NCBI RefSeq assembly: GCF_028553785.1
Contig: NZ_CP067136.1
Location: 372,001-436,000, forward strand
DNA from: Paracoccus fistulariae
Lineage (GTDB): Bacteria; Pseudomonadota; Alphaproteobacteria; Rhodobacterales; Rhodobacteraceae
Length of the DNA: 64,000 nucleotides
Reading direction: 5' to 3'
This document shows positions 33,943 to 61,051 of this stretch, one piece after another. The notes below the pieces were generated by a model. That model was not told the origin of the DNA and did not search any database. It saw only the letters and a program-made list of their open reading frames with translations. Position numbers and translations under genes: made by a program. The first letter of the stretch is position 1; every line of letters begins with the position of its first letter.

Positions 33943-34019
33943 AACCGTGCATCGAGAAAAAGGTATCTATGTTTAGGATGAATCAAACTTCGGTTTTTAC
34001 CTTCAACGGGGGGCTTTGA

Positions 34020-35804: not shown

Positions 35805-36215
35805 ATGCGGTAAGGCTGAAGCATTCCTTTCGACACCGATGTCCGACAGCTGCTCATTCCATTTCAATGAATTCGGCTCCAACACCCGCGCCAGCGTGAC
35901 TTCCGGCCCCTGCTTCCCGTCCAGGATCGTTTCGATGATGTCGGGCGCGAGCAGCGTTAGCCGCAGGACCCGGGTCATGTAGGACGGCGCGATCCCCTCG
36001 CGCTCGGCCAGTTCGGCGATGGTGGCGAACTCGCCCGACTCGAGCATCCGCTTCCAGCGGAAGGCGCGGGCCAGCGCCTTGAGCAACGTGCTGTCCGCCT
36101 TGCACGGCTGCACGGCGCCATGTGGTAGCTGCATCTCCTTCCGTCCGCCGCGCTTAACGATGCGGAACGGGACGTGCAGCGTCACCGTCTCGGGGATTGG
36201 CGCCCAACGGGTCAT
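35793..36215 (-). CDS. HTH protein of the recombinase cassette
   Basis: A 140-residue protein with a central KorB/ParB-type helix-turn-helix (ATIAELAEREGIAPSYMTRVLRLTLLAPDIIETILDG). The N-terminal region (HVPFRIVKRGGRKEMQLPHG) is conserved in homologues located next to recombinase genes. ATG 36215 overlaps the recombinase stop by 4 bases. Probably binds DNA, perhaps the recombination or control site of the cassette. Confidence 0.75.
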   Translation of the reverse strand: MTRWAPIPETVTLHVPFRIVKRGGRKEMQLPHGAVQPCKADSTLLKALARAFRWKRMLESGEFATIAELAEREGIAPSYMTRVLRLTLLAPDIIETILDGKQGPEVTLARVLEPNSLKWNEQLSDIGVERNASALPHSRQ

Positions 36216-37537
36216 GCAGCTTCTCCCATTCCGCCGGCCAGCATATCGCGCGCGAGGTCGCGGAGGCCGTCGACGCGGAGGCGGACGTTCAGCCCGTCCG
36301 TGCCGATGTCCACGCGCTCGACCAGAAGCGCCACGATGCGGGCCTGCTCTGCCGGGAAGAGTTCGTCCCACAGCGGGTCGATCTGCTGAAGTGCCGCGCG
36401 GGCATCTGCCTCAGTGATGTCGTCGGCATGCGTGCGCGCCGCCTTCCACGTTCCCGCCACGATCTCCGGCTGGCGGAACACGACGCGGAGCTGGTCGATG
36501 ACGGCCGCCTCGATCTCGCCCGCGGGCACGCGGCCGACAGGACACGAACCCGCACCATGCTTCAGCACCGTCTGGCTGACATAGTAGCGGTAGAGCCTGT
36601 CGCCCTTCTTGGTGTGCGTTGGCGAAAAGGCTGCCCCGTCTGGGCCGAACATCAGTCCCTTAAGCAGCGCCGGTGTCTCGGCGCGGGTCCGTGCGGCGCG
36701 CTTTCTTGGGCTCTCCTGCAGGATGGCGTGGACACGGTCCCATGTCTCTCGGTCGACGATCGCGTCGTGCTCGCCGGGATAGCTGTCGCCCTTGTGGACC
36801 GCCTCGCCGATATAGGCGCGGTTGTTCAGCATCCGGTAGAGGTACTTCTTGTCGATCCGGTTGCCGCGCGGCGTCCGGATGCCGCGTTTGGCAACCCCTC
36901 GCGCGAGCTCCGTGCCCGATCCGATCTCGACGAAGCGGGCGAAGACCCAGCGGACATGCTCGGCGGCGTCCTCATCGATCACCAGTTTCCGGTTCTCGAC
37001 GCGGTAGCCGTAGGGCGGCACCCCACCCATCCACATGCCCTTCTTGCGGCTGGCGGCGACCTTGTCGCGGATGCGCTCGGCCGTCACCTCGCGCTCGAAC
37101 TGGGCAAAGCTGAGCAGAATGTTCAGCGTCAGCCGCCCCATGGACGTGGTCGTGTTGAACGATTGCGTGACCGAGACGAAGGTAACTCCGTTTCTGTCGA
37201 ACACCTCGACCAGCTTGGCGAAGTCGGCCAGTGACCGCGACAGTCGGTCGATTTTGTAGACCACCACCACGTCGACCAAACCGTCCTCGATGTCTTCAAG
37301 CAGCCGCTTCAATCCGGGCCGTTCCAGCGTGCCGCCGGAGATGCCGCCGTCGTCATACTGATCGCGGACCAGCACCCAGCCCTCGGAACGCTGGCTGGCG
37401 ATGTACGCCTCGCAGGCCTCCCGCTGGGCGTGGAGGCTGTTGAACTCCTGCTCCAGCCCTTCCTCGGAGGATTTCCGGGTGTAGACCGCGCAGCGCTGCT
37501 TGCGGACGACCTTCGATTTTTCCGGCGGCCTCATCAT
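36212..37537 (-). CDS. Serine recombinase (resolvase/invertase superfamily), zinc-ribbon cysteines lost
   Basis: A 441-residue serine recombinase. The N-terminal catalytic domain has AVYTRKSSEEGL (active-site serine), YDDGGISGGTLERPGLKRLLEDI and YKIDRLSRSLADF; the Recombinase domain (PPYGYRVENRKLVIDEDAAEHVRWVFARF... IGEAVHKG) follows from about residue 165. Where large serine integrases carry a zinc ribbon, this protein reads GLMFGPDGAAFSPTHTKKGDRLYRYYVS, with the cysteines gone. It may integrate or invert the element it lies in. Start ATG 37537, overlapping the DUF2924 stop. Confidence 0.93.
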   Translation of the reverse strand: MMRPPEKSKVVRKQRCAVYTRKSSEEGLEQEFNSLHAQREACEAYIASQRSEGWVLVRDQYDDGGISGGTLERPGLKRLLEDIEDGLVDVVVVYKIDRLSRSLADFAKLVEVFDRNGVTFVSVTQSFNTTTSMGRLTLNILLSFAQFEREVTAERIRDKVAASRKKGMWMGGVPPYGYRVENRKLVIDEDAAEHVRWVFARFVEIGSGTELARGVAKRGIRTPRGNRIDKKYLYRMLNNRAYIGEAVHKGDSYPGEHDAIVDRETWDRVHAILQESPRKRAARTRAETPALLKGLMFGPDGAAFSPTHTKKGDRLYRYYVSQTVLKHGAGSCPVGRVPAGEIEAAVIDQLRVVFRQPEIVAGTWKAARTHADDITEADARAALQQIDPLWDELFPAEQARIVALLVERVDIGTDGLNVRLRVDGLRDLARDMLAGGMGEAA

Positions 37538-37989
37538 GTCCGACCCCTGTGATTCTTGAGGCCGAAGAAGACCCACCCGTTCCAGCGCGTGCCGGTGATG
37601 GCCCGGGCGATGGCAGACAGCGACTTGTAGGGCCGCCCCTGCCATTCGAAGCCGTCGGCGGTGACGGTGACGATGTGTTCGACGCCCTGCCATTCGCGCA
37701 GGAGGCGCGTGCCGGTGATGGGGCGGTCGCGGTCGAGGCACATTCCGCGCTTCTTCTTGTCCCCGCCGTCCAGTTCCTCACCCAGCCGTTCCAGCCGCCG
37801 GATGGTCTCCGGCTTCAGCCCGCCATAGGCGAGTTCCTGGATGCGGTAGGCCAGGCGGCTTTCCAGGTAGCGGCGATTGAACGGCGGCGGCTCGCTGTCG
37901 AACAGGTCGCGCCACTGTTTCTTCAGGTCCGGCGTTGGCGTGGTCTTCAGCGTGGCCAGGCGCGCGGGGATGGGGTCGGGCTTGTTCAT
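37534..37989 (-). CDS. DUF2924 family protein
   Basis: A 151-residue DUF2924 protein: WRDLFDSEPPPFNRRYLESRLAYRIQELAYGG (helix bundle), PITGTRLLREWQGVEHIVTVTADGFEWQGRPYKSLSAIARAITGTRWNGWVFFGLK. The second half resembles the RAMA-type fold and may bind DNA. It is almost always found beside this type of serine recombinase. It lies between the small gene and the recombinase with ATGA overlaps. Biochemical role unknown. Confidence 0.9.
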   Translation of the reverse strand: MNKPDPIPARLATLKTTPTPDLKKQWRDLFDSEPPPFNRRYLESRLAYRIQELAYGGLKPETIRRLERLGEELDGGDKKKRGMCLDRDRPITGTRLLREWQGVEHIVTVTADGFEWQGRPYKSLSAIARAITGTRWNGWVFFGLKNHRGRT

Positions 37990-46702: not shown

Positions 46703-46703
46703 C

Positions 46704-48119: not shown

Positions 48120-48121
48120 TC

Positions 48122-48148
48122 GACCGCCGCCCCGTAGGGACGGCGGTC
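48122..48148. terminator. Hairpin between convergent phage genes
   Basis: GACCGCCG and CGGCGGTC form an 8-bp stem around a 11-base loop directly after the stop at 48119 and 25 bases before the converging gene end at 48173. No U-run. Confidence 0.4.
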
Positions 48149-48172
48149 ATCAGCTTGTCGGGGTCCGGCGCG

Positions 48173-48745: not shown

Positions 48746-48840
48746 GGGATCGTCTCCGTATTCGGGCCCGCGTCATGCGGCGCCTCCTACGACCCCGAGC
48801 CGCGCAGGGCGCGCGGCGGGAGTTCCGGCAGTGCCGGAGA

Positions 48841-49113
48841 TCAGCGGGCGTGCTCGCCCTCGCCGAAGGCGCTGTCGGTGATGCGCTTCAGGAGGCTGGC
48901 GTAGTGTTCGAGGGTGCCGACATGGCCCCAGTTGATCTCGTCGGGGTGGGCGTTGAAGTGGTCGTCGCTCAGCGTCTGCAGCCGGGCGAGCATCTCGTCG
49001 ATCTCGGCCTTCTTGCCGATGAAGGCCGCGAGCGCGGCTTCCTTATTCCGGCGCGCCTTCTCGGCGCGGAGTTCGTGGCGCGGGGTGGTGATCGGGTTCA
49101 GGCGCGTGGTCAT
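48841..49113 (-). CDS. Phage hypothetical protein
   Basis: A 90-residue helical, charged protein (ELRAEKARRNKEAALAAFIGKKAEIDEMLARLQTL). Found beside DUF3489 in related prophages. No function assignable. Divergent from the terminase small subunit gene at 49225. Confidence 0.65.
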   Translation of the reverse strand: MTTRLNPITTPRHELRAEKARRNKEAALAAFIGKKAEIDEMLARLQTLSDDHFNAHPDEINWGHVGTLEHYASLLKRITDSAFGEGEHAR

Positions 49114-49175
49114 CGTGATGGCTCCTTGGTGAGTTGCATCGTCCTTCTGAACGGACGTTCGCTCCGGTCGCGCTG

Positions 49176-49192
49176 CTTATCAACTCGATAAG
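49176..49192. promoter_or_regulatory. Dyad CTTATC-N5-GATAAG upstream of terminase
   Basis: A perfect 6-bp inverted repeat with a 5-bp centre, in the 111-base region between a leftward gene and the late genes. Candidate operator or late control site. Confidence 0.4.
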
Positions 49193-49224
49193 AACATGAT
49201 TTCGATAGATAATCGGAGCCGTCG

Positions 49225-49821
49225 ATGCAGGGCATGAGCGAGCGCCAGTACGCCGCGCATGTCGGGCTGTCGCGGGGCGCGATCCAGAAGGCGAAGACGG
49301 CCGAGCGGCTGGTCCTCTATCCCGATGGCAGCATCAACGCGGCCGCCAGCGACGCCCGGCGGGCAGAGACAACGGACCCTTCGAAGACGAGGAAGCCGCC
49401 CGCGCCGAAGCTGAAGCCCGTCCCCGAGGCGGCCGTGGCCGCTGTTGGCGACACGCTGCGTGAACAGGGGCTGGCAGTCCCGGCCGTCGGCGGCGGCACG
49501 ACCTTCCTGCAGGCGAAGACCGCGAACGAGGTGCTGAAAGCGCAGGAGCGGCGCATCCGGCTCCAGAAGCTGAAGGGGGAGTTGATCGAGCGGGCCCGCG
49601 CGCTGGCGCTGGTGTTCCGGCTGGCGCGGGAGGAACGGGACGCGTGGGTGAACTGGCCTGCACGCGCGGCGGCGCTGATGGCGGCCGAACTGTCAGCCTC
49701 GTGCGCCGACGTGACCGGCCAGCAGATCACCGTGGAGCCAGCCGCGATGCAGAAGGTCCTGGAGAAACATGTACGCGCCCACCTCGACGAACTCGCCGAG
49801 GTCCGGCCCGACTTCCGGTGA
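49225..49821 (+). CDS. Terminase small subunit
   Basis: A 198-residue protein with an N-terminal HTH (MSERQYAAHVGLSRGAIQKAKTAERLVLYPDGSINAAASD) and a C-terminal region (ARALALVFRLAREERDAWVNWPARAAALMAAELSASCADV) found in phage TerS-like proteins. It should recognise phage DNA for packaging. GGAG precedes ATG 49225. Overlaps the next gene by 53 bases. Confidence 0.75.
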   Translation: MQGMSERQYAAHVGLSRGAIQKAKTAERLVLYPDGSINAAASDARRAETTDPSKTRKPPAPKLKPVPEAAVAAVGDTLREQGLAVPAVGGGTTFLQAKTANEVLKAQERRIRLQKLKGELIERARALALVFRLAREERDAWVNWPARAAALMAAELSASCADVTGQQITVEPAAMQKVLEKHVRAHLDELAEVRPDFR

Positions 49822-52318
49822 CGATGATGGCCTGATCGACTTCGACGGCGCGGGCGAGATCCTCCGCGCCTGGGGCAACGGGTTGCGGCCCGACCCGGAC
49901 CTGACCGTTTCGGAATGGGCGGACCGGCACCGGATGCTCTCGGGGCGGGCTTCAGCCGAACCGGGGCGGTATCGCACCGTGCGCACGCCCTACATGCGCG
50001 AGATCATGGACCGGCTGTCGCCGGGGGATCCCACGCAGCGGATCGTGTTCATGAAGGCGGCGCAGGTCGGCGCGACCGAGGCGGGCAACAACTGGATCGG
50101 GTTCGCGATCCACCAGGCGCCGGGTCCGATGCTGGCGGTCCAGCCGACCGTGGAACTGGCCAAGCGCAACTCGCGCCAGCGCATCGACCCGCTGATCGAT
50201 GAAAGCCCAGAGCTGCGGGAGCGGGTGAAGCCCGCGCGATCCCGCGATGCGGGCAACACGATGCTCTCGAAGGAGTTCGCGGGCGGCATCCTGATCATGA
50301 CGGGCGCGAACTCGGCGGTCGGGCTTCGGTCCACCCCGGCGCGCTACATCTTCCTCGACGAGGTCGACGCCTATCCCGCCTCGGCCGACGAGGAAGGCGA
50401 TCCGGTCACGCTCGCCGAGGCGCGCTCCCTGACCTTCGCCCACCGGCGCAAGGTGCTGCTGGTCTCGACGCCCACGATCCGGGGGCTGTCGCGCATCGAG
50501 CGCGAGTACGAGGCCAGCGACCAGCGTCGGTTCTTCGTGCCGTGCCCACAATGCGGCCACGCACAATGGCTGAAGTTCGACCGGCTGCGCTGGCAAAAGG
50601 GCCGCCCGGAGACGGCCGAGTATCACTGCGAGGGCTGCGACGCGGCAATCGCGGAACACCACAAGACGGCGATGCTGGAGGGCGGCGAATGGCGGGCGAC
50701 CGCCACGGCCGCCGATCCGACCACGGTCGGGTATCACCTTTCGGCGCTCTATTCGCCGATCGGCTGGCTGAGCTGGGAGCGGATCGTGCGGTCATGGGAA
50801 GCAGCCCAAGGGTCGGACGAGGCGATCAAGGCGTTCCGCAACACGATCCTCGGCGAGACATGGGTCGAGACCGGGGAAGCGCCCGACTGGCAGCGGCTCT
50901 ACGACCGGCGCGAACGCTGGAAATCCGGCACGGTGCCAGCAGGCGGGTTGTTCCTGACAGCCGGAGCCGACGTGCAGAAGGACCGGATCGAGGTCGATGT
51001 CTGGGCCTGGGGTCGCGGCTTGGAAAGCTGGCTCGTCGATCACGTCGTCATCGAGGGCGGGCCCGACCGCGTCTCCACCATTTACGATCTGGCCGGGCGG
51101 CTGAACCTCGAGCGCGGCTTCGCCGAGGATCTGGTCAAGCGCGGCGTCAGCATCGACGAGTCCCGCCGACTGATCCTCGACCAGGTCGCCGCGAAATCCG
51201 ACGAGACCCGGAACTTCCCCCATGTCTCCGTCCCGCTCGGCGGCCGAGACGAGTGCATCACCCGCCGTGACGCGGTGGCGAACGCACTGCTGCACCGCTA
51301 CAGCCCAACGCTGTTCCAGCTCGAGGACGCCGCGCGCCAGTATCGCGGCATGACGCTGCTGGAGCTCGCCCGCGAAAGCCTCGGCAATGCCGGGGTCAAC
51401 ACGCGCGGCCTGTCGCGTGACGAGGTGGCGACGCGCGCGCTGCACTCGACCTCGGACTTCCCCGAGATCCTGTCGGCCGTCACCAACAAGACGCTGCGGC
51501 AGGCCTACGAGGCCTATCCCCGCACCTTCATGCTGTTCTGTCGCCAGGTGCTGGCGACCGACTTCAAGGCGATGCATCGCGTCCAGCTCGGCGAAGCCCC
51601 GCAGCTGCTCGAGGTCGGCGAAAGCGGCGAGTTCAAGCGCGGCACGCTGGGCGAGAGCAAGGAGAGCTACAAGGTCAAGACCTATGGCCGGGTGGTCGCC
51701 ATCACCCGTCAGACGCTGATCAACGACGATCTCGACGCCTTCACCCGCATCCCGGCGATGTACGGCAACTCCATCGCCCAGCTGGAGTCGGACGTGGTCT
51801 GGGGCATCATCACCGCCAACCCGGCGATGGCCGACGGCAATGCGCTCTTCCACACCACCCACAAGAACCTGGCAGGCACCGGCGCGGCGCTCGATGTCAG
51901 CAGCGTCGGAGCGGCGCGCGCGGCGATGGCCAAGCAGACCGGCCTCGACAAGAAGACGGTGCTGAACGTCCGGCCTGCCTTCCTGATCGTGCCGGCCTCA
52001 CTGGAACTGAAAGCCGAACAGCTGGTGGCCCAGAACCTCGTGCCCGCCGCGACGTCCAGCGTGGTGCCGCAGTCGATCAGGACGCTGGCGCCGATCAGCG
52101 AGCCCCGGCTCGACGCCGCTAGCGAGACCGCCTGGTATCTGGCGGCCAGCCCGAACCAGATCGACACCATCGAGTACGCCTATCTCGAGGGCCAGCAGGG
52201 CGCCTATATCGAGACGCGCAACGGCTTCGACGTCGACGGGGTCGAGATCAAGTGCCGCCTCGACTTCGGAGCCAAGGCCATCGACTGGCGCGGCCTCTAC
52301 AAGAACCCGGGCGCGTAA
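49769..52318 (+). CDS. Terminase large subunit fused in frame to prohead protease/major capsid protein
   Basis: One 849-residue frame. Residues 1-433 match a GpA-type terminase: P-loop variant KAAQVGATEAG (97-107), Walker B FLDEVD (195-200), zinc ribbon CPQC...CEGC (259-262, 287-290) and the first nuclease Asp in AGADVQ (401). At residue 432-435 (about 51062-51073) it switches, without stop or frameshift, to a gpT-like prohead protease/major capsid protein: QYRGMTLLELARESLGNAGVNTRG, HSTSDFPEILSAVTNKTLRQAYE, VVAITRQTLINDDLDAFTRIP. Nuclease end, portal and protease start are missing. Confidence 0.9.
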   Translation: MYAPTSTNSPRSGPTSGDDDGLIDFDGAGEILRAWGNGLRPDPDLTVSEWADRHRMLSGRASAEPGRYRTVRTPYMREIMDRLSPGDPTQRIVFMKAAQVGATEAGNNWIGFAIHQAPGPMLAVQPTVELAKRNSRQRIDPLIDESPELRERVKPARSRDAGNTMLSKEFAGGILIMTGANSAVGLRSTPARYIFLDEVDAYPASADEEGDPVTLAEARSLTFAHRRKVLLVSTPTIRGLSRIEREYEASDQRRFFVPCPQCGHAQWLKFDRLRWQKGRPETAEYHCEGCDAAIAEHHKTAMLEGGEWRATATAADPTTVGYHLSALYSPIGWLSWERIVRSWEAAQGSDEAIKAFRNTILGETWVETGEAPDWQRLYDRRERWKSGTVPAGGLFLTAGADVQKDRIEVDVWAWGRGLESWLVDHVVIEGGPDRVSTIYDLAGRLNLERGFAEDLVKRGVSIDESRRLILDQVAAKSDETRNFPHVSVPLGGRDECITRRDAVANALLHRYSPTLFQLEDAARQYRGMTLLELARESLGNAGVNTRGLSRDEVATRALHSTSDFPEILSAVTNKTLRQAYEAYPRTFMLFCRQVLATDFKAMHRVQLGEAPQLLEVGESGEFKRGTLGESKESYKVKTYGRVVAITRQTLINDDLDAFTRIPAMYGNSIAQLESDVVWGIITANPAMADGNALFHTTHKNLAGTGAALDVSSVGAARAAMAKQTGLDKKTVLNVRPAFLIVPASLELKAEQLVAQNLVPAATSSVVPQSIRTLAPISEPRLDAASETAWYLAASPNQIDTIEYAYLEGQQGAYIETRNGFDVDGVEIKCRLDFGAKAIDWRGLYKNPGA

Positions 52319-52344
52319 GGCGCGCTTCCTGAACCCTGACACAC

Positions 52345-52369
52345 GGGCGGTCCTGACGGGCCGCCCTTC
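52345..52369 (+). terminator. Hairpin after the capsid part
   Basis: GGGCGG (52345-52350) and CCGCCC (52361-52366) with loop TCCTGACGGG, followed by TTCGTCTTT. It lies between the fusion stop and the DUF2190 gene. Partial terminator or processing site. Confidence 0.45.
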
Positions 52370-52392
52370 GTCTTTCCACGAGGATCCCCATC

Positions 52393-52728
52393 ATGAAAAC
52401 CTACGTCCAGCCCGGCAACACCATCACCCTGACCGCGCCCTATGCCGTCGCCTCCGGCGATGGCCTGCTCGTCGGCTCCATCTTCGGCATCGCCGCGGGT
52501 GCCGCCGCCATTGGCGAGCCCGTCGAGACCGCGCTCGTCGGCGTGTTCGACATCACCAAGGTCGGCTCCCAGGCGTGGACGGTTGGCGCCAAGGTCTATT
52601 GGGACGACACCAACAAGCGCACCACGACCGTCGCGACCGACAACACCCTCATCGGCGCGGCCGTCGAGGCGGTGGCGAGCGGCGCCGGCGACACCATCGG
52701 CCGGGTGCGCCTGAACGCGACGTTCTGA
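52393..52728 (+). CDS. DUF2190 head decoration protein
   Basis: A 111-residue DUF2190 protein: VQPGNTITLTAPYAVASGDGLLVGSIFGIAAGAAA and KVYWDDTNKRTTTVATDNTLIGAAVEAV. Family members are capsid decoration or stabilisation proteins encoded directly after the major capsid gene, consistent with the C-terminal identity of the preceding fusion. Confidence 0.85.
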   Translation: MKTYVQPGNTITLTAPYAVASGDGLLVGSIFGIAAGAAAIGEPVETALVGVFDITKVGSQAWTVGAKVYWDDTNKRTTTVATDNTLIGAAVEAVASGAGDTIGRVRLNATF

Positions 52729-53039
52729 TGTCGGCCTTCGCCGCCGCCATCGGCGCGCTCTTCGCCGATCCGAACATCGGCCGGGACGCGGTCTACATCG
52801 CCGACGGCGGTACACCCGTGCTGGTGCGTGCCGTCGCCCGTCGCGCCGACGCGGTCACCGACTTCGGCGACGCGCGGCTCTGGTCCGAAACCACCCGGAT
52901 CGACCTGCGCGTGGCCGAGGTGGCGAACCCGCGTCCCGGCGACCGCATCGAGATCGACGGCGACGCCTTCCTCATACAGGGCGAGCCGGTCCGCGACCGC
53001 GAGCGGCTGGTCTGGACCGTCGACCTGAGGCCCGCGTGA
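52728..53039 (+). CDS. Head-tail joining protein
   Basis: A 103-residue protein with ATG 52728 overlapping the preceding stop. Beta-rich, with DRIEIDGDAFLIQGEPVRDRERLVWTVDLRPA. Matches small phage head-tail connector proteins located between decoration and tail completion genes. Overlaps the next gene by 4 bases. Confidence 0.7.
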   Translation: MSAFAAAIGALFADPNIGRDAVYIADGGTPVLVRAVARRADAVTDFGDARLWSETTRIDLRVAEVANPRPGDRIEIDGDAFLIQGEPVRDRERLVWTVDLRPA

Positions 53040-53665
53040 AACTGAAGCTCGACATCGATCCCGACATCGTCGCGATGATGGCGGCCGAGGTCGCGGCGGG
53101 TGAACGGGCCGTCACCGCCGCCATTCGCGAGGCCGGGACTGGGCTGAAGACGGCGTGGCGGTTGCAGATCACCGGCGCGGGGCTTGGTACACGGCTCGCC
53201 AACTCGATCCGGAGCCAGAACTTCCCGAGGTCGGGCGAGAGCCTTGAGGCTGCGGCGCTGGTCTGGTCGAAGGCGCCGGTAATCGTCGGTGCGCATGACA
53301 CCGGGCCGCTGATCCGATCGAAGAACGGGTTCTGGCTGGCGATCCCGCTGCCCGCGGCGGGCAAATCCCTGCGCGGCGGCCGGATCACCCCCGGTGAATG
53401 GGAGCGGCGACGCGGCCTCCGCCTGCGTTTCGTCTATCGCCGGACGGGCCCCAGCCTGCTGGTCGCCGAGGGGCGGCTGAACACGAAAGGCCAGGCGGTG
53501 GTGTCGCGGTCGAAGACCGGGCGCGGAAAGGTCACTGCGCCGATCTTCCTGCTGGTGCCGCAGGTCAAGCTGCCGAAGCGGCTGGATCTGGCGCGGGATG
53601 CAGACCGGGCGTTGGACAGCGTGCCGGGGCTGATCGTGGCGAACTGGGTGGGGGGTAGGTTGTGA
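53036..53665 (+). CDS. DUF6441 family phage protein
   Basis: A 209-residue virion-assembly protein: MKLKLDIDPDIVAMMAAEVAAGERAVTAAIREAGTGLKTAWR and a C-terminal LLVPQVKLPKRLDLARDADRAL. Family function in head-tail completion is inferred from its fixed position. In other phages the next gene is the tail completion protein; here a mer operon lies between. Confidence 0.75.
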   Translation: MKLKLDIDPDIVAMMAAEVAAGERAVTAAIREAGTGLKTAWRLQITGAGLGTRLANSIRSQNFPRSGESLEAAALVWSKAPVIVGAHDTGPLIRSKNGFWLAIPLPAAGKSLRGGRITPGEWERRRGLRLRFVYRRTGPSLLVAEGRLNTKGQAVVSRSKTGRGKVTAPIFLLVPQVKLPKRLDLARDADRALDSVPGLIVANWVGGRL

Positions 53666-53715
53666 TCGCATCGATGCGCAATCTTGCTCGGCAGCCACGA
53701 AACCGACGGCTCGGG

Positions 53716-55152
53716 TTACCCCGCGCAGCACGACAGCTTCGCGACATCCTTGTCGAAGGTCTGCGCGGCGAGCTTCAGCCCCTCTACCGTGGTCAGATAG
53801 GGGAAGATCGTCTCGCCGAGCGCCTTTGTCGTCATGCCGAACTTGAGCGCCATGGCGAGCGTCTGGACACTGTCGGCTCCCTCCGGCGCCATGATCACGC
53901 CGCCCAGGAGGCGGTCGGTCGCCCGGTCCGCGACGAGCTTGATCAGGCCGCGCGTGTCGCGGGCGGCGAGCGCGCGGGGCACGTTGTCGAGCGTCAGCAC
54001 ACTGGTCTTGACGTCATGACCCGCGGCGCGCGCCTGCGCCTCGGTCAGCCCGACGCCGGCGACCTGCGGATCGGTGAACACCACCCACGGCATCGCGGCG
54101 TTGTCGTAGCGCTCCGCCCCGCCCAGAACGGCGTTGCGGGACGCGAGCTTGGCGCCATAGGCGGCCATGTAGACGAACTGGTCGCGGTCGGTCACATCGC
54201 CCGCCGCGAAGATGCCGGCCTTCGTGGTCTGCATGTCGTCGCCCACCCGGATCGCGCCACGCGCGTCGGTCTCGACGCCCATCTCCGCGAGGCCCAGCCC
54301 CTCGGTGTTGGCTGCGCGTCCCGTCGTCAGGACGAGGCGGTCGGCCGTCAGATCGCGGTCTGCGCCGTCCACCGTCACCGTCAGGACCGCACGGGCCCCG
54401 TCGCGCCGTGCGGCGTCGTAGGTCGCGCCATCGACAACCGCGACGCCCTCGGCGCGCAGCGTCTCCGTCAGCGCCCGGGACACCTCCGGCTCTGTGCGCG
54501 GCAGCAGGCGCGAGCGGCAGACAATGGTGACGCGGGTGCCCATCCGCGCCATCATCTGCGCCAGCTCCACGCCGATGTAGCCGCCGCCGAGGAAGATCAG
54601 GCTTTCGGGCAACCGGTCCAGCTCCAGCAGCGACGTGCTGTCGAGCGTTGGTGCGTCCTGGATCCCAGGGATGTCGGGCACGGCGGGTCGGCCACCGGTC
54701 GCGACGATCACCTTGGGAGCCGTGATCCTGCGCCCGCCGACCTCGACCCCGCCGAGGACGAGACGCGCCGGACCCTCGTCGAGATAGGTCACACCGCCGT
54801 AGCCCGGCAGCAGATCGGCGTACTTCTTCTGGCGCAGTGTCGCGACAAGATCGTCCTTGGCCGCAATCAGCGCCGACCAGTCGGCGACCTGCGCCTCGCT
54901 GTTCAGGCCCGGGAACCGATGTGCTGTCTGCGCACCGTGCAGGGCTTCCGCGGCCCGGATCATCGTCTTGGAGGGCACACAGCCCACGTTCACGCAGGTC
55001 CCGCCGATGGTGCCATGGCCGATCAGCGCGACGCGCTTGCCTCCCTCGGCGGCGGTGATCGCGGCCGAGAACCCGGCCGATCCGGCGCCGATCACGGCAA
55101 GGTCGAAATCGCCCTTGGGCGCGCAGCAATCGTCTTTCATCAAGTCATCCAT
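53716..55152 (-). CDS. merA: Mercuric reductase without NmerA domain
   Basis: A 478-residue flavoprotein disulfide reductase. FAD-binding VIGAGSAGFSAAITAAEGG at the N-terminus, redox-active disulfide GGTCVNVGCVPSK, NADPH-binding GGGYIGVELAQ, second FAD motif IFAAGDVTD, and the C-terminal Hg(II)-binding vicinal Cys pair (LSCCAG end). It reduces Hg(II) to volatile Hg(0) using NADPH in the cytoplasm. The N-terminal heavy-metal-associated domain present in some MerA is absent; DDCCAP replaces it. Last gene of merTPFA; overlaps merF by 8 bases. Confidence 0.96.
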   Translation of the reverse strand: MDDLMKDDCCAPKGDFDLAVIGAGSAGFSAAITAAEGGKRVALIGHGTIGGTCVNVGCVPSKTMIRAAEALHGAQTAHRFPGLNSEAQVADWSALIAAKDDLVATLRQKKYADLLPGYGGVTYLDEGPARLVLGGVEVGGRRITAPKVIVATGGRPAVPDIPGIQDAPTLDSTSLLELDRLPESLIFLGGGYIGVELAQMMARMGTRVTIVCRSRLLPRTEPEVSRALTETLRAEGVAVVDGATYDAARRDGARAVLTVTVDGADRDLTADRLVLTTGRAANTEGLGLAEMGVETDARGAIRVGDDMQTTKAGIFAAGDVTDRDQFVYMAAYGAKLASRNAVLGGAERYDNAAMPWVVFTDPQVAGVGLTEAQARAAGHDVKTSVLTLDNVPRALAARDTRGLIKLVADRATDRLLGGVIMAPEGADSVQTLAMALKFGMTTKALGETIFPYLTTVEGLKLAAQTFDKDVAKLSCCAG

Positions 55153-55378
55153 CCGTTCGAGTGGTCTGGCGCCGCTGCCGTCTCCAGACCGCGTACACGG
55201 TCAGCGCGACGAAAAAGGCGAGCGCGGGCAGCAGAACGTAGTCGAGCCAACCCAGCCAGGCCGACAGGCCCACGGCACCCAGAAGCACCACCAGCACCGG
55301 AGTGAAGCAGCAGAGCGCCGCGATGACGGTGCCGACGATCCCTGTCGCGATCAGCTTGCGGTCGGACTGCTCGGTCAT
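55145..55378 (-). CDS. merF: Mercuric transport protein MerF
   Basis: A 77-residue inner-membrane protein with two helices; the first contains the Hg-binding vicinal Cys motif IAALCCFTPVLVVLLG. Start taken at ATG 55378 (MTEQSD). Brings Hg(II) across the membrane to MerA. Confidence 0.92.
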   Translation of the reverse strand: MTEQSDRKLIATGIVGTVIAALCCFTPVLVVLLGAVGLSAWLGWLDYVLLPALAFFVALTVYAVWRRQRRQTTRTDG

Positions 55379-55382
55379 CTCG

Positions 55383-55688
55383 TCAGCCCGCGACACGCGC
55401 CGGGTAGCCTGCATTGGCCGACGCGGTCGCGATGGCGTCGGCGCTCGTCGCGGCGGTGTCGAAGATCACCGTGGCGGTGCGGGCATCGAAGTCGATCTCG
55501 ACGGCGCGCACGCCCGCGACGCCCTCCATCGCACGCTTCACGGTGACTGGGCAGAGCGCGCAGGTCATGTTGTCCACCGCGAAGGTGACGGTCTGCTCGG
55601 CGGCGACGGTCTGCGCGGCAACAGGGATGGCGGTGATCGGCACAACGGCGGTCAGGCCGAACAAGGCGAGTGCAAGGATCTTCTTCAT
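55383..55688 (-). CDS. merP: Periplasmic mercury-binding protein MerP
   Basis: A 101-residue protein with a signal peptide (MKKILALALFGLTAVVPITAIPVAAQ) and a heavy-metal-associated domain with NMTCALCPVTVKRAM (MTCxxC). It binds periplasmic Hg(II) and hands it to MerT or MerF. 4 bases from merF. Confidence 0.96.
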   Translation of the reverse strand: MKKILALALFGLTAVVPITAIPVAAQTVAAEQTVTFAVDNMTCALCPVTVKRAMEGVAGVRAVEIDFDARTATVIFDTAATSADAIATASANAGYPARVAG

Positions 55689-55706
55689 GTGGATGTCCTT
55701 TCGGGG

Positions 55707-56096
55707 TCAGTAGAGAAGCGGGGCCCACCAGTCGATGGTGAGGGCTGCGAGAACGAGGATCAGGGAGGCCCAGAGAGCCGACTTGGTGATGCGCGCCGAT
55801 GCTGGCCTTGCGCAGTAGGAACCGGGTTCGCAGACGGTTGGCTTGCGGAAATAGACCTGCCAGAAACCCGCCGCGATGAAGCCGAGCGCGATCACGGCGA
55901 AGATCGGCTTGTAAGGCTCCAGAGCCGTCAGGTTGCCGATCCAGGCGCCCGAGATGCCGAGAGTCAGAAGCACCAGCGGCCCGATGCAGCAGGCCGAGGC
56001 GAGAAAGGCGCCCACCACACCGCCCGCCGCGAGCCAGCCCTTTCGGGCGGGGCGATCCGCGCCCGTGCTGTCCGTTCTGTCGTCTGTCAGCGCCAT
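55707..56096 (-). CDS. merT: Mercuric transport protein MerT
   Basis: A 129-residue membrane protein with three predicted helices. Helix 1 has LASACCIGPLVLLTLG (vicinal Cys), and the cytoplasmic-periplasmic loop has CEPGSYC. ATG at 56096. First structural gene of the merTPFA unit. Confidence 0.94.
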   Translation of the reverse strand: MALTDDRTDSTGADRPARKGWLAAGGVVGAFLASACCIGPLVLLTLGISGAWIGNLTALEPYKPIFAVIALGFIAAGFWQVYFRKPTVCEPGSYCARPASARITKSALWASLILVLAALTIDWWAPLLY

Positions 56097-56127
56097 GTCG
56101 CGCACCTCTCGTCTGTGATTGACGATG

Positions 56128-56158
56128 GGTGTAGGGTCTGTAGCAACTACAGGCTCAA
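56128..56158 (-). promoter_or_regulatory. MerR-type operator/promoter of merTPFA
   Basis: On the minus strand -35 TTGAGC (56158-56153) and -10 TACACC (56133-56128) are separated by 19 bp instead of 17. Inside the spacer is a dyad CTGTAG-TTG-CTACAG (56138-56152). The overlong spacer with a central dyad is the hallmark of promoters that MerR activates by DNA distortion on Hg(II). It lies between the merR and merT starts and could control both. Confidence 0.85.
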
Positions 56159-56172
56159 GAGGAAACTTGCCC

Positions 56173-56598
56173 ATGACCGATCACGAGCGCGAGAGCGGCT
56201 TCACACGCGGCGACCTGGCCCGGGCGACCGGCTGCAACATCGAGACGATCCGCTATTACGAGAAGACCGGCCTGCTGCCCGACCCGCCCCGCACGGACGC
56301 CGGCTACCGGGTCTATTCCGCCGCACACGCCACACGCCTCCGCTTCATCCTGCGCGCCCGCGAACTCGGGTTCTCGATGGAGGACATCCGCGGGCTGATG
56401 GGGCTCGGCGACGGCGCCGCGCCGACCTGCGCCGAGGTCAAGGAACGGACGGAGCGGCACCTTGCCGATGTCCGCGCGAGGATCGCGGATCTTCGGCGTA
56501 TCGAATCCGTCCTCGCTACAACTGCATCCAGGTGTTCGGGCGCCGAAGTCCCCGATTGTCCGGTGCTCGAAGCGATTTCCAACTCGGCCGACCCATGA
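56173..56598 (+). CDS. merR: Mercury-responsive regulator MerR
   Basis: A 141-residue MerR: N-terminal winged helix (FTRGDLARATGCNIETIRYYEKTGLLPDPPRT), coiled-coil dimerisation helix, and Hg-binding Cys residues 86, 121 and 129 (TCAEVKER, RCSGAEVPDCPV). The last two cysteines are separated by 7 residues, versus 8 in Tn501 MerR, so the site is of a variant class. ATG 56173. Its stop overlaps the ATG of the phage gene at 56595. Confidence 0.95.
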   Translation: MTDHERESGFTRGDLARATGCNIETIRYYEKTGLLPDPPRTDAGYRVYSAAHATRLRFILRARELGFSMEDIRGLMGLGDGAAPTCAEVKERTERHLADVRARIADLRRIESVLATTASRCSGAEVPDCPVLEAISNSADP

Positions 56599-57011
56599 CA
56601 CCTCGCGAAACCATCCTCGTCGCGCTGCACGCGCGGCTCTCGGCGCTGCCCGCCACCGCTCTGCGCGGGGACGTGCTGCCCGAGCGCATGCCGGTCGAGG
56701 GCCTGATGATCCTGCGCGATGGCGAACCAGGTGCGCCCGAAGTCACGCTGTCGCCGCTGCGCTATCACTACCAGCACCGAGCCGAGATCGAGGCGGTCGT
56801 TCAGGGTGCCGATCGCGACGCCGCCTTTGACACGCTGACCGCCAGCATCGGCGCAGCGCTCGCCGCCGACCGGACGCTGGGCGGGTTCTGCGACTGGGTC
56901 GAGGCCGAAGCCCCGCGCCCGGTCGATCTGCCGGTCGAGGGCGCGGCGAGTCTGAAGGCCGCCGTTATCCCGGTCGTGCTGCACTATTCCACGGCCGACC
57001 CGCTGGCCTGA
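56595..57011 (+). CDS. Phage tail completion/terminator-like protein
   Basis: A 138-residue protein: TPRETILVALHARLSALPATALRGDVLPERMPVEGLMILRDGEPG and YHYQHRAEIEAVVQGADRDAAFDTLTASIGAAL. Fits tail terminator/completion proteins between head-joining and tube genes. ATG 56595 overlaps merR. Ends 24 bases before the tube gene. Confidence 0.75.
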   Translation: MTPRETILVALHARLSALPATALRGDVLPERMPVEGLMILRDGEPGAPEVTLSPLRYHYQHRAEIEAVVQGADRDAAFDTLTASIGAALAADRTLGGFCDWVEAEAPRPVDLPVEGAASLKAAVIPVVLHYSTADPLA

Positions 57012-57035
57012 CCCAACCGACCACAGGAGACGAAC

Positions 57036-57977
57036 ATGGCACGAGCCCAAGGGGCGCGAGCGCTGATGGCGCTTGCGTTCGAGACGACCTATGGAACGCC
57101 GCCCGTCAGCGGCTTCACCCGCATGCCCTTCGCCAGCACGTCGCTCGGCGCGGAGCAGCCGCTGCTGAATTCGGAGCTTCTCGGCTACGGCCGCGATCCG
57201 CTAGCGCCGATCAAGGACGCCGTGACGGCCGACGGCGACGTCGTCGTGCCGCTGGACGCCGAGGCGTTCGGCTTCTGGCTGAAGGCAGCCTTCGGCGCGC
57301 CCACGACCACGGGCGCGGAGGCCCCGTACAGCCACGAATTTCAGTCGGGGTCCTGGACGTTGCCCTCGATGTCGATCGAGACCGGCATGCCCGAGGTGCC
57401 CCGCTATGCGATGTACTCGGGCTGCGTGCTCGACCAGATCACCTGGCAGATGCAGCGCTCGGGCCTGCTCACCGCGACCGCGCGGCTGGTGGCGCAGGGC
57501 GAGACGGTCGGCACCACGACCAGTGCCGGAACGCCCGCCGCACTGGAGTTGAAGCGCTTCGGCCATTTCAACGGGGCGATCACCCGGAACGGCACCGCCC
57601 TCGGCAATGTGGTCTCGGCCGAGATCACCTACGCCAACAACCTCGACCGGATCGAGACCATCCGCTCGGACGGCCGCATCGATGGCGCGGATCCATCCAT
57701 TGCCGCGCTGACGGGCCGGATCGAGGTGCGCTTCGCCGACCAGACGCTGGTGACGCAGGCGATCAACGGCGAGGCCTGCGAGATGGAATTCGCCTACGTC
57801 CTGCCTTCAGGCGAAAGCTTCTCCTTCACCGTGCACGCCGTCTACCTGCCGCGTCCACGGATCGAGATTTCCGGGCCGCAGGGCGTCCAGGCGACATTCG
57901 ACTGGCAGGCCGCGCGCGACAGCGTCGTCGGCCGGATGTGCACCGCCACCCTCGTGAATGACGTGGAGACGTATTGA
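57036..57977 (+). CDS. Phage tail tube protein
   Basis: A 313-residue protein: MARAQGARALMALAFETTYGTPP, then beta-rich repeats such as LDQITWQMQRSGLLTATARLVAQGE and NVVSAEITYANNLDRIETIRSDGRIDGADPS. Matches the tail tube/structural protein family of Rhodobacteraceae phages. AGGAG precedes the start. Its stop overlaps the next gene. Confidence 0.8.
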   Translation: MARAQGARALMALAFETTYGTPPVSGFTRMPFASTSLGAEQPLLNSELLGYGRDPLAPIKDAVTADGDVVVPLDAEAFGFWLKAAFGAPTTTGAEAPYSHEFQSGSWTLPSMSIETGMPEVPRYAMYSGCVLDQITWQMQRSGLLTATARLVAQGETVGTTTSAGTPAALELKRFGHFNGAITRNGTALGNVVSAEITYANNLDRIETIRSDGRIDGADPSIAALTGRIEVRFADQTLVTQAINGEACEMEFAYVLPSGESFSFTVHAVYLPRPRIEISGPQGVQATFDWQAARDSVVGRMCTATLVNDVETY

Positions 57978-58414
57978 TGCTGACGCTCGACCTGACCAAC
58001 GCGCCGCGCTGGCATGACCTCGCCCCCGGCGTCCGGGTGCAACTGCGCCCGCTGACGACCGCCCTGATGGTCGCGACGCGCAGCGACCCCGCCGTCGAGG
58101 CGGTGCCCGAGGAGGCTTCCGACGAGGAGCGCGCCGTCGCCTTCGCCAAGGCGCTGGCGCGACGGGCTGTGCTCGGCTGGGAGGGCATCGGCGATGCCGA
58201 CGGCAACCCGATCGATCCCACCCCCGAGGCCATCGACGCGCTGCTCGACGTCTGGCCGATCTTCGAGGCCTTCCAATTGACCTACGTGTCCAAAGGCCTG
58301 CTGCTGGAACAGGAAAAAAACGCCTCCGCGCTCTCGCCGAGTGGTCCTTCGGCGGGGGCGAGCGCTACTGCGAAGCCTGCGCGCAAGCGTGCGAAGACTG
58401 CCCGACGCGCCTGA
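57977..58414 (+). CDS. Tail assembly chaperone, upstream (unshifted) product
   Basis: A 145-residue protein (ATG 57977, overlapping the tube stop): LTLDLTNAPRWHDLAPGVRVQLRPLTTALMVATRSDPAV and IDALLDVWPIFEAFQLTYVSKGLLLEQEKNAS. Like lambda gpG, it is the short product of the pair that ends after a slippery site; a tail of Ala/Lys/Arg follows. The longer shifted product uses the next frame. Confidence 0.75.
   Translation: MLTLDLTNAPRWHDLAPGVRVQLRPLTTALMVATRSDPAVEAVPEEASDEERAVAFAKALARRAVLGWEGIGDADGNPIDPTPEAIDALLDVWPIFEAFQLTYVSKGLLLEQEKNASALSPSGPSAGASATAKPARKRAKTARRA
58315..58321 (+). other. Slippery heptamer A AAA AAC for -1 frameshift
   Basis: In the frame of the upstream chaperone the codons read GAA AAA AAC, giving a canonical X XXY YYZ heptamer A AAA AAC at 58315-58321. 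Shift by -1 continues as codon CGC at 58321 with an open frame to 58641, as in lambda gpG/gpGT. Confidence 0.8.
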
Positions 58415-58641
58415 ACCGGCCGCTTACCCATGAGGGCTGGCAGGTCTGGGATCTCGTCGGCCGCCTCGGCGGTCAGTTGCGCGTGCTGCCCGGCGCGGTG
58501 GTCGGCTGGGACCTGTCCGCGGCCCTCGCTCTGGGAAATGCGCTCGGCGTCCCGCCCGCTGCTGCGGGTGAACTCTTGCCCGTCATCGAAGCGGTGATGG
58601 TGGCCAAGCTCAACGAAAAGATGGATCATTCCCATGGCTGA
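58321..58641 (+). CDS. Tail assembly chaperone, -1 frameshift extension
   Basis: After the slip the frame reads RLRALAEWSFGGGERYCEACAQAC...PLTHEGWQVWDLVGRLGGQLRVLPGAVVGWDLSAALALGNALGVPPAA...EAVMVAKLNEKMDHSHG and stops at 58641, 106 residues. It has no start codon of its own near its beginning, and it overlaps the tape measure start by 8 bases. Four Cys in the first half could bind zinc. The long fusion product should escort the tape measure during tail assembly. Confidence 0.75.
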   Translation, partial: RLRALAEWSFGGGERYCEACAQACEDCPTRLNRPLTHEGWQVWDLVGRLGGQLRVLPGAVVGWDLSAALALGNALGVPPAAAGELLPVIEAVMVAKLNEKMDHSHG

Positions 58642-61051
58642 GAAGAGGGTCAGCGTCCGCCTCGCGGCCGTGGGCGGACGGCAGGTGCGCGCCGAACTCG
58701 AAGGCGTGGGCGAGGCCGGGTCGCGCGGCTTCGGACGGCTGAGCCGGGAGATGGAAGCCGCGAACGCCCGGCTCGCGGCCTTCTCGCGGCGGGTGCGGGT
58801 CGCGGCTGCCGCTGCCGTGGCCGCCGCAGCCGCTGCTGGCGTGGCGATGATCCGGTCCAGCCTGCAGACGGTCGATGCGCAGGCCAAGCTGGCGCAGTCG
58901 CTCGGCACCACCGTCGCCTCGATCCAGACGCTGGAGCGCGCGGGCGATCTGGCGGGCGTCTCCATGTCCGGCATCGAGCAGGCCACCAAGGATCTGACGC
59001 GCCGTCTCAGTCAGGCGGCCGCCGGGACCGGCCCTGCTGCCGACGCGCTCGACCGGCTGGGGCTTTCAGCAAATGAGCTGATCGCCTTGCCGCTGGACCA
59101 GCGCGTGGGCGCGATCAACGCGGCGATCGAGAGCTTCGTGCCTGCCGCCGAGCGCGCGGCGGTCGCGGGCCAGCTCTTCGGCGAGGAAGGCTCCATCGCG
59201 ATGAGCCGGATCGACACCGCGACGCTGCGCCAGGCGACAGAGGACGTCCTCGCCTTCGGGGTTGTCGTCTCCGAGCAGGACGCCGACCAGATCGAGCGGA
59301 CGAACGACGCCATCTCGCGGCTCGGGTTGGTCTGGCGCGGGCTCTCGAACCAGTTGGCGGTCGCAGCGGCACCTGCGCTGGAAGCCGTCGCCGATGCCAT
59401 GGCGGCGGTGGCCAGCCGCACCGGGCCGCTCGGCATCGCGATCCGCGGTCTCTTGGACAACATCGGCCGCCTGACCACCTATGCCGCCACCTTCGCGGCG
59501 TTCCTCGCGGGACGTTGGGTCGCCGGCATGGCGGCTGCGGCGCTCTCGGTCCGGGGCCTCGCCACGGCGCTCGTTGTCCTGCGCGGGGCGCTGATCCGCA
59601 CCGGCATCGGCGCGCTGATCGTCGGCGCGGGCGAGCTCGTCTACCAGTTCACCCGGCTCGTCTCCGGCGCCGGCGGTTTCGGAGAAGCGATGTCGCTCCT
59701 GAAGGACCTCGCGGTCGAGGTCTGGGAACGCATCAGTATGGGCGCGGCGGCGGCGGGCGCGGCCGCCACGGCGATGTTCTTCGACCTGAAGGCGGATGCC
59801 GCATCGGGCATGCAGAGCGCCATCGAGAGCGTGGTGGGCTTCGGCAACACGGCCGCGAACACCTTCGAAGGCGCCTACGAGGCGATCAAGGCGATCTGGG
59901 GCCTGCTGCCCGCCGCCATCGGCGATCTCGCGTTCCAGGCGGCCAACAGCCTGGTCGATGGCGTCGAGGCGATGCTGAACGGGGTGGTCTCGCGGATCAA
60001 CGGCTTTATCGGCGGCATCAACCAGGGGCTCGAAGCGCTCGGGTCGGAGCGGCGCATATCGCTGGTTCCGGACCTCGACCTCGGCGAGATCGAGAACCGC
60101 TTCGAGGGAGCGGCGACTGCCGCAACCACGGCAGCTCAGGCGGCCTTCGATCGGGCCTTCGAGGACAATCCGCTCTCCGCGCCCGATCTCGGTCTGACCG
60201 AGGCGGCGAACAGGGCGCTCGAGTCCGCCAACCTTTACCGCGGCGCGGCGCGCGACCTGGCGGAGGGGGCCCGTGCGCCCCTCGAAAGCTGGCAGGCGCT
60301 GCGCGATGCCGTACGCGGCACCGACGAGGACGGCGCCGACGCACTGGCCGAGACCACCGCTGCGGCGGAGCGCCTGGAGACGTCCCTCGGCGACGCCGGG
60401 CGCGCCGCAACAGATGCAGGTGTGGCGGCCGGAGCTGCTGCTGCGGTAGCGGAGCCCGCGACCGACGCGGCCGTCACCGGCTGGCGGGCGGTCACCGCCG
60501 CGCTCTCCGACTACGCCAGCAAGGCCCGCGAGATCGGTGGCGACATCGGCCAGAGCCTCGTCGGCGCCTTCCAGTCGGCCGAGAACGCGGTGGGCCAGTT
60601 CGTGAAGACCGGCAAGCTCGACTTCCGCGATCTGGTGACGTCGCTGCTGGCCGATCTCGCCCAACTGGCGGCGCGGCGGTTCATCCTCGGGCCGATCGCC
60701 AATGCGCTCTCCGGCGTCTTCTCCGGGGCGGGCGGCATCTTCGCCAACGTCCTGCATGCGGGCGGGATGGTCGGATCGGCTGGACCCTCGCGGATGGTCC
60801 CGGCCATGGCCTTCGCCGCCGCGCCGCGGATGCATGGTGGCGGCATGGCCGGGCTTCGTCACGACGAGGTGCCCGCGATCCTGCAGCGCGGGGAACGCGT
60901 GCTGTCGCGGCGGGAGGCACAGAGCTACGGCGCGGGCGGCGGGGTCAACGTGACCATCATGGCCCGCGACGCCGAGAGCTTCCGGCAATCGCGAACGCAG
61001 GTCGCCGCGGATATCGCCCGCGCCGTGTCGCTCGGTCGGAGGGGCATGTGA
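58634..61051 (+). CDS. Phage tail tape measure protein
   Basis: An 805-residue protein with Ala-rich helical segments and coiled coils typical of tape measures (about residues 30-110), hydrophobic stretches (about 270-330), and a C-terminal HDEVPAILQRGERVLSRREAQSYGAGG motif common in such proteins. By the usual 1.5 A per residue the tail would be about 120 nm. Stop overlaps the next gene by 1 base. Confidence 0.92.
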   Translation: MAEKRVSVRLAAVGGRQVRAELEGVGEAGSRGFGRLSREMEAANARLAAFSRRVRVAAAAAVAAAAAAGVAMIRSSLQTVDAQAKLAQSLGTTVASIQTLERAGDLAGVSMSGIEQATKDLTRRLSQAAAGTGPAADALDRLGLSANELIALPLDQRVGAINAAIESFVPAAERAAVAGQLFGEEGSIAMSRIDTATLRQATEDVLAFGVVVSEQDADQIERTNDAISRLGLVWRGLSNQLAVAAAPALEAVADAMAAVASRTGPLGIAIRGLLDNIGRLTTYAATFAAFLAGRWVAGMAAAALSVRGLATALVVLRGALIRTGIGALIVGAGELVYQFTRLVSGAGGFGEAMSLLKDLAVEVWERISMGAAAAGAAATAMFFDLKADAASGMQSAIESVVGFGNTAANTFEGAYEAIKAIWGLLPAAIGDLAFQAANSLVDGVEAMLNGVVSRINGFIGGINQGLEALGSERRISLVPDLDLGEIENRFEGAATAATTAAQAAFDRAFEDNPLSAPDLGLTEAANRALESANLYRGAARDLAEGARAPLESWQALRDAVRGTDEDGADALAETTAAAERLETSLGDAGRAATDAGVAAGAAAAVAEPATDAAVTGWRAVTAALSDYASKAREIGGDIGQSLVGAFQSAENAVGQFVKTGKLDFRDLVTSLLADLAQLAARRFILGPIANALSGVFSGAGGIFANVLHAGGMVGSAGPSRMVPAMAFAAAPRMHGGGMAGLRHDEVPAILQRGERVLSRREAQSYGAGGGVNVTIMARDAESFRQSRTQVAADIARAVSLGRRGM

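Follow-up and report, generated by a model that had tools for sequence, protein, structure and literature searches.

How does a mercury-resistance (mer) operon come to stand among the head and tail genes of a phage? The question is raised by a 64,000-nucleotide stretch of the Paracoccus fistulariae genome (RefSeq assembly GCF_028553785.1, contig NZ_CP067136.1, positions 372,001 to 436,000 of the forward strand; hereafter the window), in which a 2,929-bp mer cassette separates the gene of a DUF6441 phage protein from that of the tail terminator. Very probably, the operon is what currently fills a cargo slot of hypervariable content, which lies in the late (head-tail) operon of a temperate phage family widespread among the Alphaproteobacteria. 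The slot is best read as a moron-type hotspot, unusual for its constant occupancy and its richness in metal resistance.

The mer cassette and its borders

In the window, merR on the forward strand and merT, merP, merF and merA on the reverse strand occupy the interval from the DUF6441 stop (53665) to the ATG of the tail-terminator gene (56595). The features of the slot and of its two borders, in window coordinates, are as follows.

53036..53665, + strand: DUF6441 phage protein, left border of the slot (Pfam PF20039, E 3e-46; phrog_6367)
53666..56594, no strand: content of the cargo slot, the 2,929-bp mer cassette (from the window sequence; mer lies at the same seam in 13 distinct cargo sequences sampled)
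53716..55152, - strand: merA, mercury(II) reductase, 478 amino acids (aa) (TIGR02053, 524.5 bits, passing the cut-off of 454.5)
55145..55414, - strand: merF, transporter (NF033565, 111.9 bits, passing the cut-off of 50)
55383..55688, - strand: merP, periplasmic Hg-binding protein (TIGR02052, 77.1 bits, second-ranked match, under the cut-off of 92.6; MTCALC motif found by eye)
55707..56096, - strand: merT, transporter (NF010314, 106.8 bits, top match, under the cut-off of 150)
56128..56158, - strand: MerR-type promoter/operator for merTPFA, consisting of TTGAGC, a 19-bp spacer with the dyad CTGTAG-TTG-CTACAG, and TACACC (assigned by eye)
56173..56598, + strand: merR, regulator, co-directional with the late operon (TIGR02051, 125.4 bits, top match, under the cut-off of 150.9)
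56595..57011, + strand: tail terminator, right border of the slot (phrog_4204, E 1.1e-41)

An earlier note on this DNA had described a complete mer operon with a classic operator. The gene set and order bear this out, MerA and MerF score above their cut-offs, and the stretch at 56128-56158 has what we take to be the motif of a MerR-type promoter. The claim stands less firmly for MerR, MerT and MerP, all of which score beneath their NCBIfam equivalog cut-offs; gene order and neighbours agree with those of annotated plasmid mer operons. MerA possesses both the catalytic and the C-terminal cysteine pairs (a CVNVGC motif and a C-terminal CC, found by eye), and a family scan matched no N-terminal metal-binding domain in it. 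Judged from these gene families, the cassette is predicted to confer mercury resistance. The note had also placed the operon between DUF6441 and tail completion genes, with merR overlapping the phage ATG by 4 bases. PF20039 on the left and phrog_4204 on the right agree with this position, and the stop of merR does share the 4 bases ATGA with the start codon of the terminator gene.

Occupancy and contents of the slot

The earlier note had taken the module to be normally contiguous, and this is where it fails. DUF6441 loci were gathered from viral contigs, named genomes and family genomes irrespective of the gene downstream, by scans covering at least about 600 stretches each; 83 of the 295 family genomes contained a DUF6441 match. 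The first collection held 278 DUF6441 places, 243 of them with a downstream terminator gene. Of the 35 that were dropped, 29 had less than 3 kb of sequence remaining, while six (L012, L188, L205, L223, L275 and L282) had no recognisable terminator gene in more than 3 kb and could hide rearranged or empty seams. Where DUF6441 was at least 75% identical, the gap between the two genes was at least 300 bp in 179/179 loci, and none was contiguous. A second collection, for which a divergent DUF6441 sequence served as query alongside a pattern placed at the start of the terminator gene, added 126 new loci, with nine more left without a call; all 126 were occupied, including 117/117 at the same identity. 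The 205 and 126 loci of the two collections include some duplicates with differing ends, and occupancy was recounted by distinct cargo sequence. At 75% identity or above, 287 of 287 distinct cargo sequences were occupied (293 if flanks also count), with a spacing of 375-3,347 bp.

Contiguity appears only under 75% DUF6441 identity. There, occupancy by distinct cargo was 11/13 (70-75%), 4/8 (60-70%) and 4/9 (<60%), one of the occupied loci in the last class (L235, second place) being a partial DUF6441 within other cargo; loci best matched by two cultured-phage queries were never occupied (0/4, both phages counted in). In these two phages, Rhodobacter phage RcKemmy and Synechococcus phage Sc-Yong805-1, the DUF6441 homologue and the next gene overlap by 4 bases, and this ATGA overlap is probably the ancestral state. 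The cargo thus resembles a moron in being an extra gene set between genes that are adjacent in relatives, namely in RcKemmy, Sc-Yong805-1 and distant prophages. In a tree, occupied and contiguous loci were clustered, with 6 changes against a mean of 15.4 in shuffles; the tree had unsettled bootstraps and long branches and was used solely for this clustering.

A pattern for the empty seam had no match in the viral contigs, where the right seam alone was found in at least 120 stretches. The pattern requires an exact AACTGGGT, the third base of which is conserved at only about 78%, so that some empty seams would escape it. When ten gene seams of the late operon were compared, the DUF6441-terminator gap reached 300 bp in 179/179 loci and the nine others did so in 1-17%. 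The highest of the nine, chaperone-tape measure (21/124 open by at least 300 bp) and terminator-tube (16/164), are secondary cargo seams. The borders of the slot are sharp: in the part of the boundary listing that was inspected, the final few DUF6441 codons differ by cargo, and conservation restarts at the terminator ATG. The slot would accordingly extend from the last DUF6441 codons to the terminator start codon, replacing the probably ancestral ATGA overlap.

The contents of the slot are highly diverse. All occupied loci together gave 306 distinct cargo sequences of 152 types, 105 of which were seen once, and the subset at or above 75% DUF6441 identity gave 143 types among 287 sequences, a number of types that is unsaturated (Chao1 about 380). 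Over all occupied loci the spacing was 308-3,976 bp, with a median of 1,043. These properties are those of a prophage hotspot, which measures about 1-5 kb, has a high turnover and is bordered by two conserved phage genes; many cargos, at less than 1 kb, are smaller than the low end of the range given by Rousset et al. The mean guanine-plus-cytosine (GC) content of the cargo was 54%, compared with 70% for the flanks, and 97 of 98 types were more than 5 points lower.

Recognised cargo for metals, transport and metabolism includes mer, a chromate transporter, a cation efflux protein with a metal-binding domain, SulP, a molybdopterin oxidoreductase, LysE and DapA. Other occupants carry a helix-turn-helix protein with a Gp49-like toxin, ParE, HEPN, PLD, a Ser/Thr kinase, an IrrE-type peptidase, a histidine kinase, GIY-YIG, or QueC with a deoxyribosyltransferase. 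In a PADLOC scan of 111 cargo proteins, the models PD-T4-6, MkoA, RmrA and Orf5 matched one or two members each, among the 25 of 89 families listed, and Hailong HalA/HalB occurred in one distant locus (L258). By their family matches, the kinase, PD-T4-6, MkoA, RmrA, HEPN and toxin-antitoxin cargos are predicted to act against phages. No Pfam family was found for 15 of the 40 cargo proteins searched one by one. The largest cargo cluster is broad, with 34 members, ParE-type toxin loci among them. Two readings made by eye were not used: an ACR3-like protein in L182, which had no NCBIfam match at 1e-10, and a CsoR-like protein beside the cation-efflux gene.

The mer operon is not itself a typical cargo, since it accounts for only 13 of the 306 distinct occupied sequences despite over-sampling, which arose because the first query was the DUF6441 of the mer phage itself. 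Two variants of it were observed. In L289 (genome G320), a diverged mer cassette (83%) is accompanied by about 1.1 kb of extra DNA between merR and the terminator gene, a case of stacked cargo. In L137, L043 and L044 the mer cargo is 2,125 bp long, and in L137 most of merF, merP and most of merT are unaligned.

That merTPFA runs against the late operon, as the note had stated, is real, and it is the commoner orientation in the slot. The main predicted open reading frame (ORF) opposes the late operon in 58 of 94 cargo types, and in 38/52 among the best-supported ORFs; ORFs were chosen by composition, the automatic choice favoured antisense ORFs in GC-rich cargo (merA included), and choices without a family match are provisional.

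Exchange, spread and the host prophage

Comparison of loci that share a cargo points to its exchange between phage backbones. Among the 248 usable same-cargo pairs (out of 270), the cargo was more than 2 points more alike than both flanks in 77 and than at least one flank in 128, and less alike than both flanks in 16. In one example pair, a 1,457-bp cargo is 99.9% identical between flanks of 91% and 89% identity; conversely, L102 and L107 have left flanks that are 100% identical and unrelated cargo. The mer phages themselves are mosaic. The one in Paracoccus aminovorans follows the window across the cassette and departs from it from 56756 onward, that of P. shanxieyensis diverges from about 57050-57179 onward, and that of a Hyphomonadaceae metagenome-assembled genome (MAG) is nearly identical to the window just within about 52964-58207. 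Crossovers within or near the border genes would explain these three mosaics.

No specific recombination site was found, the third-position entropy of the border genes being about 0.8 bits near the seam as elsewhere, and a dedicated recombination signal was rejected on this ground. Codons 5-12 of the terminator gene are somewhat more conserved than the rest. A conserved ribosome-binding site before the terminator gene was likewise rejected, matches of the Shine-Dalgarno (SD) type being only mildly enriched (26% against 10%).

The mer cassette is found widely and nearly unchanged. Compared bin by bin, the cassette located at this seam is 99.7-100% identical to that of the window in Rhodovulum, Tropicimonas, Hoeflea, three Paracoccus species, Jiella, Roseibium, Amaricoccus, Histidinibacterium and four MAGs. 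The 10.6-kb backbones of Rhodovulum, Tropicimonas, Paracoccus marcusii, Amaricoccus and Histidinibacterium are 99.4-99.9% identical to that of the window, and those of Jiella and Roseibium 99.0%, other mer phages being more mosaic. The near-identical mer phages thus represent seven genera of two alphaproteobacterial orders, five belonging to the Rhodobacterales, and Jiella and Roseibium to the Hyphomicrobiales. Diverged mer versions (82-86%) adjoin slot genes in two further genomes. The nearest relatives in the plasmid collection are mer operons of roseobacter plasmids, which have the same gene order and match nearly the whole cassette at 88-92%, so that the cassette appears to have been taken up almost end to end. 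Overall, mer-like DNA was present in 63 of 394 family genomes, and a slot gene lay nearby, within the retrieved stretch, in 6 of the 30 such places examined.

Phages exchange cargo, and the probable means is homologous recombination within the two conserved genes that flank it; these would serve as exchange arms, and polylysogeny would supply the partners. The cargo probably benefits the lysogen; because it tends to oppose late transcription, its own promoter would drive its expression during the prophage state. In a mercury-exposed lysogen, going by the protein families, MerR would sense Hg(II) and control merTPFA from the divergent promoter, MerT, MerP and MerF would import Hg(II), and MerA would reduce it to Hg(0). 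Once the prophage is induced, late transcription would cross merTPFA in antisense and continue via merR to the terminator gene. Selection acting on lysogens through metal stress or competing phages would keep cargo in the slot.

Left of the slot, the window prophage has terminase, capsid, cement and head-tail attachment genes, and right of it tail terminator and tail tube genes. The remaining phage features are the following.

36212..37741, - strand: large serine integrase of the prophage (phrog_95 integrase, E 3.8e-114, and DNA-invertase families, from which "large serine" is deduced)
49769..52318, + strand: N-terminal part of the terminase large subunit fused in frame to the C-terminal part of the capsid protein (PHROG and Pfam matches to both halves)
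52393..52728, + strand: head decoration/cement protein (PF09956)
52725..53039, + strand: head-tail attachment protein (PF05354)
57036..57977, + strand: tail tube protein (PF18906, E 6.5e-60)

Length, order and the RcKemmy annotation suggest that chaperone and tape-measure genes come after the tail tube gene. Within the presumed tape-measure gene, ARAGORN reported a tRNA-Gly (acc) on the opposite strand (60434-60524), probably a false positive.

Two points that the earlier note lacked concern this prophage. One is a large deletion in its head module: the ORF at 49769-52318 encodes 849 aa, of which the first half matches terminase and the second half capsid, and comparison with a second copy and with other mer phages places the loss of about 3.3 kb (terminase end, portal, start of the protease-capsid gene) at a junction near 51.06 kb. 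The other is that the cassette occurs twice in the genome. A second prophage on the same chromosome (C1:3.58-3.62 Mb) has a mer cassette that is 100% identical, and its terminase, portal and capsid genes are undeleted. Deletion aside, both prophages are identical over 46295-60702 (about 14.4 kb; the second copy at C1:3.60-3.62 Mb; L008 and L009) and about 10-12% divergent on either side of this block, the edges of which are sharp; the second prophage has no counterpart of about 61440-68561. The identical blocks could reflect either recent recombination or conversion, or collapsed assembly repeats.

The whole genome contains seven DUF6441 places. Three further slot-bearing relatives lie on the same chromosome, at C1:1696500-1707000, 2259000-2269500 and 2789500-2800000, with cargo of 672, 701 and 3,258 bp, respectively, the last of which contains an IS3-like transposase recognised by eye (loci L228, L237 and L230); at a fourth additional place (L252) the two genes are contiguous. 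Elsewhere in the window (26999-35801), directly after a tRNA-Ser (26321-26410), there is a type I restriction-modification region (M, S and R subunits and an AbiJ-like protein), followed by an Orf5/HEC-06-like protein.

Competing explanations and known systems

Could the operon instead be a mercury transposon, or the remnant of one, that inserted by chance into the late operon and was later reduced to a bare operon? The same gene order on roseobacter plasmids speaks for such a source, as do the TniQ/TniB/Mu-type transposase genes that adjoin mer in Celeribacter pP73C and the entry of mer into Salmonella phage SJ1 within a Tn21-like unit. Yet the marks of a Tn21/Tn5053-type element (terminal inverted repeats, transposase, target duplication) were not found in the repeat listing and the cargo ORFs: none of the 25 longest repeat pairs listed joins the cassette ends as an inverted repeat, and by eye no transposase was recognised among the mer cargo ORFs, in keeping with the note's remark that no transposon ends are visible. 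Moreover, the mer cargo ends at identical phage codons in relatives, and the close non-mer relatives scored have other cargo at the seam. This explanation is therefore very unlikely, and a transposon may account for the origin of the cassette, not for the slot. An error of assembly or contamination that wrongly joined mer and phage genes is scarcely credible, as independent assemblies of isolates, as well as MAGs, show the same arrangement, and three viral contigs contain the merR-terminator junction. Collapsed repeats could yield both the sharp-edged identity of about 14.4 kb and another identity stretch that ends at a contig end; an artefact is refuted for the mer-slot junctions, and the exactness of the two copies here may be due to one.

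It is also conceivable, if unlikely, that the slot is a structurally required spacer of a few hundred bases, or a coupling element, to which the identity of the cargo is incidental. The occupancy of 287/287 suits this idea, as do the shortest spacing of 308 bp, the lack of any locus between 17 and 307 bp in either collection and the doubtful ORFs of a few short cargos. Against it, distant relatives, cultured phages among them, manage without a spacer, no conservation is apparent upstream of the terminator ATG, where the enrichment of SD-like matches is mild, and many occupants have recognisable functions. The earlier note had counted a regular separation of the flanking genes in mer-free phages against phage-borne cargo. 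Such separation is indeed found among close relatives, yet a slot whose contents change is what brings it about, and the cargo reading gains strength from this. Of the note's moron-like metal resistance, the part that concerns phage-borne cargo without visible transposon ends is thus well supported; a single insertion into a module otherwise contiguous is unsupported.

Several observations weigh against a slot of exchangeable cargo as the full account. A scan of 53000-57200 gave no terminator and no sigma-70 match, so that the mer cargo may not be insulated. The mer cargo is also GC-rich (68%, against about 70% for the flanks of the phage family), where the usual cargo is AT-richer, and it therefore lacks the deviating base composition of a moron. 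Five cargo types had no ORF passing the filters; a plainer listing gave ORFs of 64-141 aa in three of them and none of 60 aa in one (L190), so that some occupants may not be genes. In 120 of the 248 same-cargo pairs the cargo was not clearly more alike than either flank, and several of 20 same-cargo pairs inspected lose identity within tens of bases of the cargo ends, more sharply than simple flank recombination would often give; short-homology events may be needed. Finally, the window prophage is unlikely to form particles alone because the portal gene and parts of the terminase and capsid genes are gone.

A bolder version of the cargo-slot reading holds that the seam is an obligate cargo port, at which phages of the family always carry a passenger because one is required at this position or is constantly replenished by recombination among co-resident prophages. 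This is offered tentatively, as a possibility that is open to considerable doubt. If true, the late operon would be a gene-exchange platform. It would have passed one mer cassette, with scarcely any change, across several genera in two orders, and it would draw on an open pool comprising hundreds of small genes, mostly unknown, for antiviral and stress functions.

The literature found does not name the slot, and no paper mentioning "DUF6441" was found, most subscription papers lying beyond the reach of the search. As far as these searches show, the seam, its constant occupancy, its breadth and the spread with it of a mer cassette without transposon parts are new. Through the cargo slot, predicted mercury and other metal resistance appears to have moved between genera by a definite phage route that shows no visible transposon parts. 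The phage family can be likened to a vehicle whose single cargo bay takes interchangeable loads, and DUF6441 and the tail terminator form an anchor pair for extracting a module of 308-3,976 bp from genomes. With 105 of 152 types seen once and many proteins without a family match, the seam can guide the hunt for new phage-defence and stress genes.

In lambdoid and Mu-like phages, morons are additional genes that lie between conserved structural ones, mostly have a lower GC content and are apparently autonomous. The slot is like them in placing extra genes among structural genes, and unlike them in its single fixed seam, its open pool of more than 140 types and its cargo that more often opposes the late operon. 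RcKemmy has the same head-tail gene order as the window phage and a DUF6441 homologue at 48.8%, but no cargo and the 4-base overlap; ten more Rhodobacter capsulatus phages have a DUF6441 match. The P1-like Salmonella phage SJ1 (OQ595196) also carries a mer operon in its genome; however, its merR, T, P, C, A, D and E lie amid insertion sequences and Tn21-type genes, with no structural genes annotated adjacent. Closer in host, Decewicz et al. (2019, PMC6536676) reported metal genes in 10 (pro)phages of Paracoccus; in two prophages that come from different continents and are 99% identical, arsB lies opposite to the structural genes around it. The accessible part of that report describes no common slot and no mer operon. 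Hotspots between conserved phage genes are themselves established, as in the antiviral hotspots of P2/P4-type prophages (Rousset et al. 2022, PMC9122126). As far as the accessible part of that study goes, these share with the slot a small, high-turnover locus between two conserved phage genes and defence-type cargo, whereas the slot belongs to another phage family, lies within head-tail genes and not beside cos, is always occupied in the sample and has metal resistance as a prominent part of its cargo.

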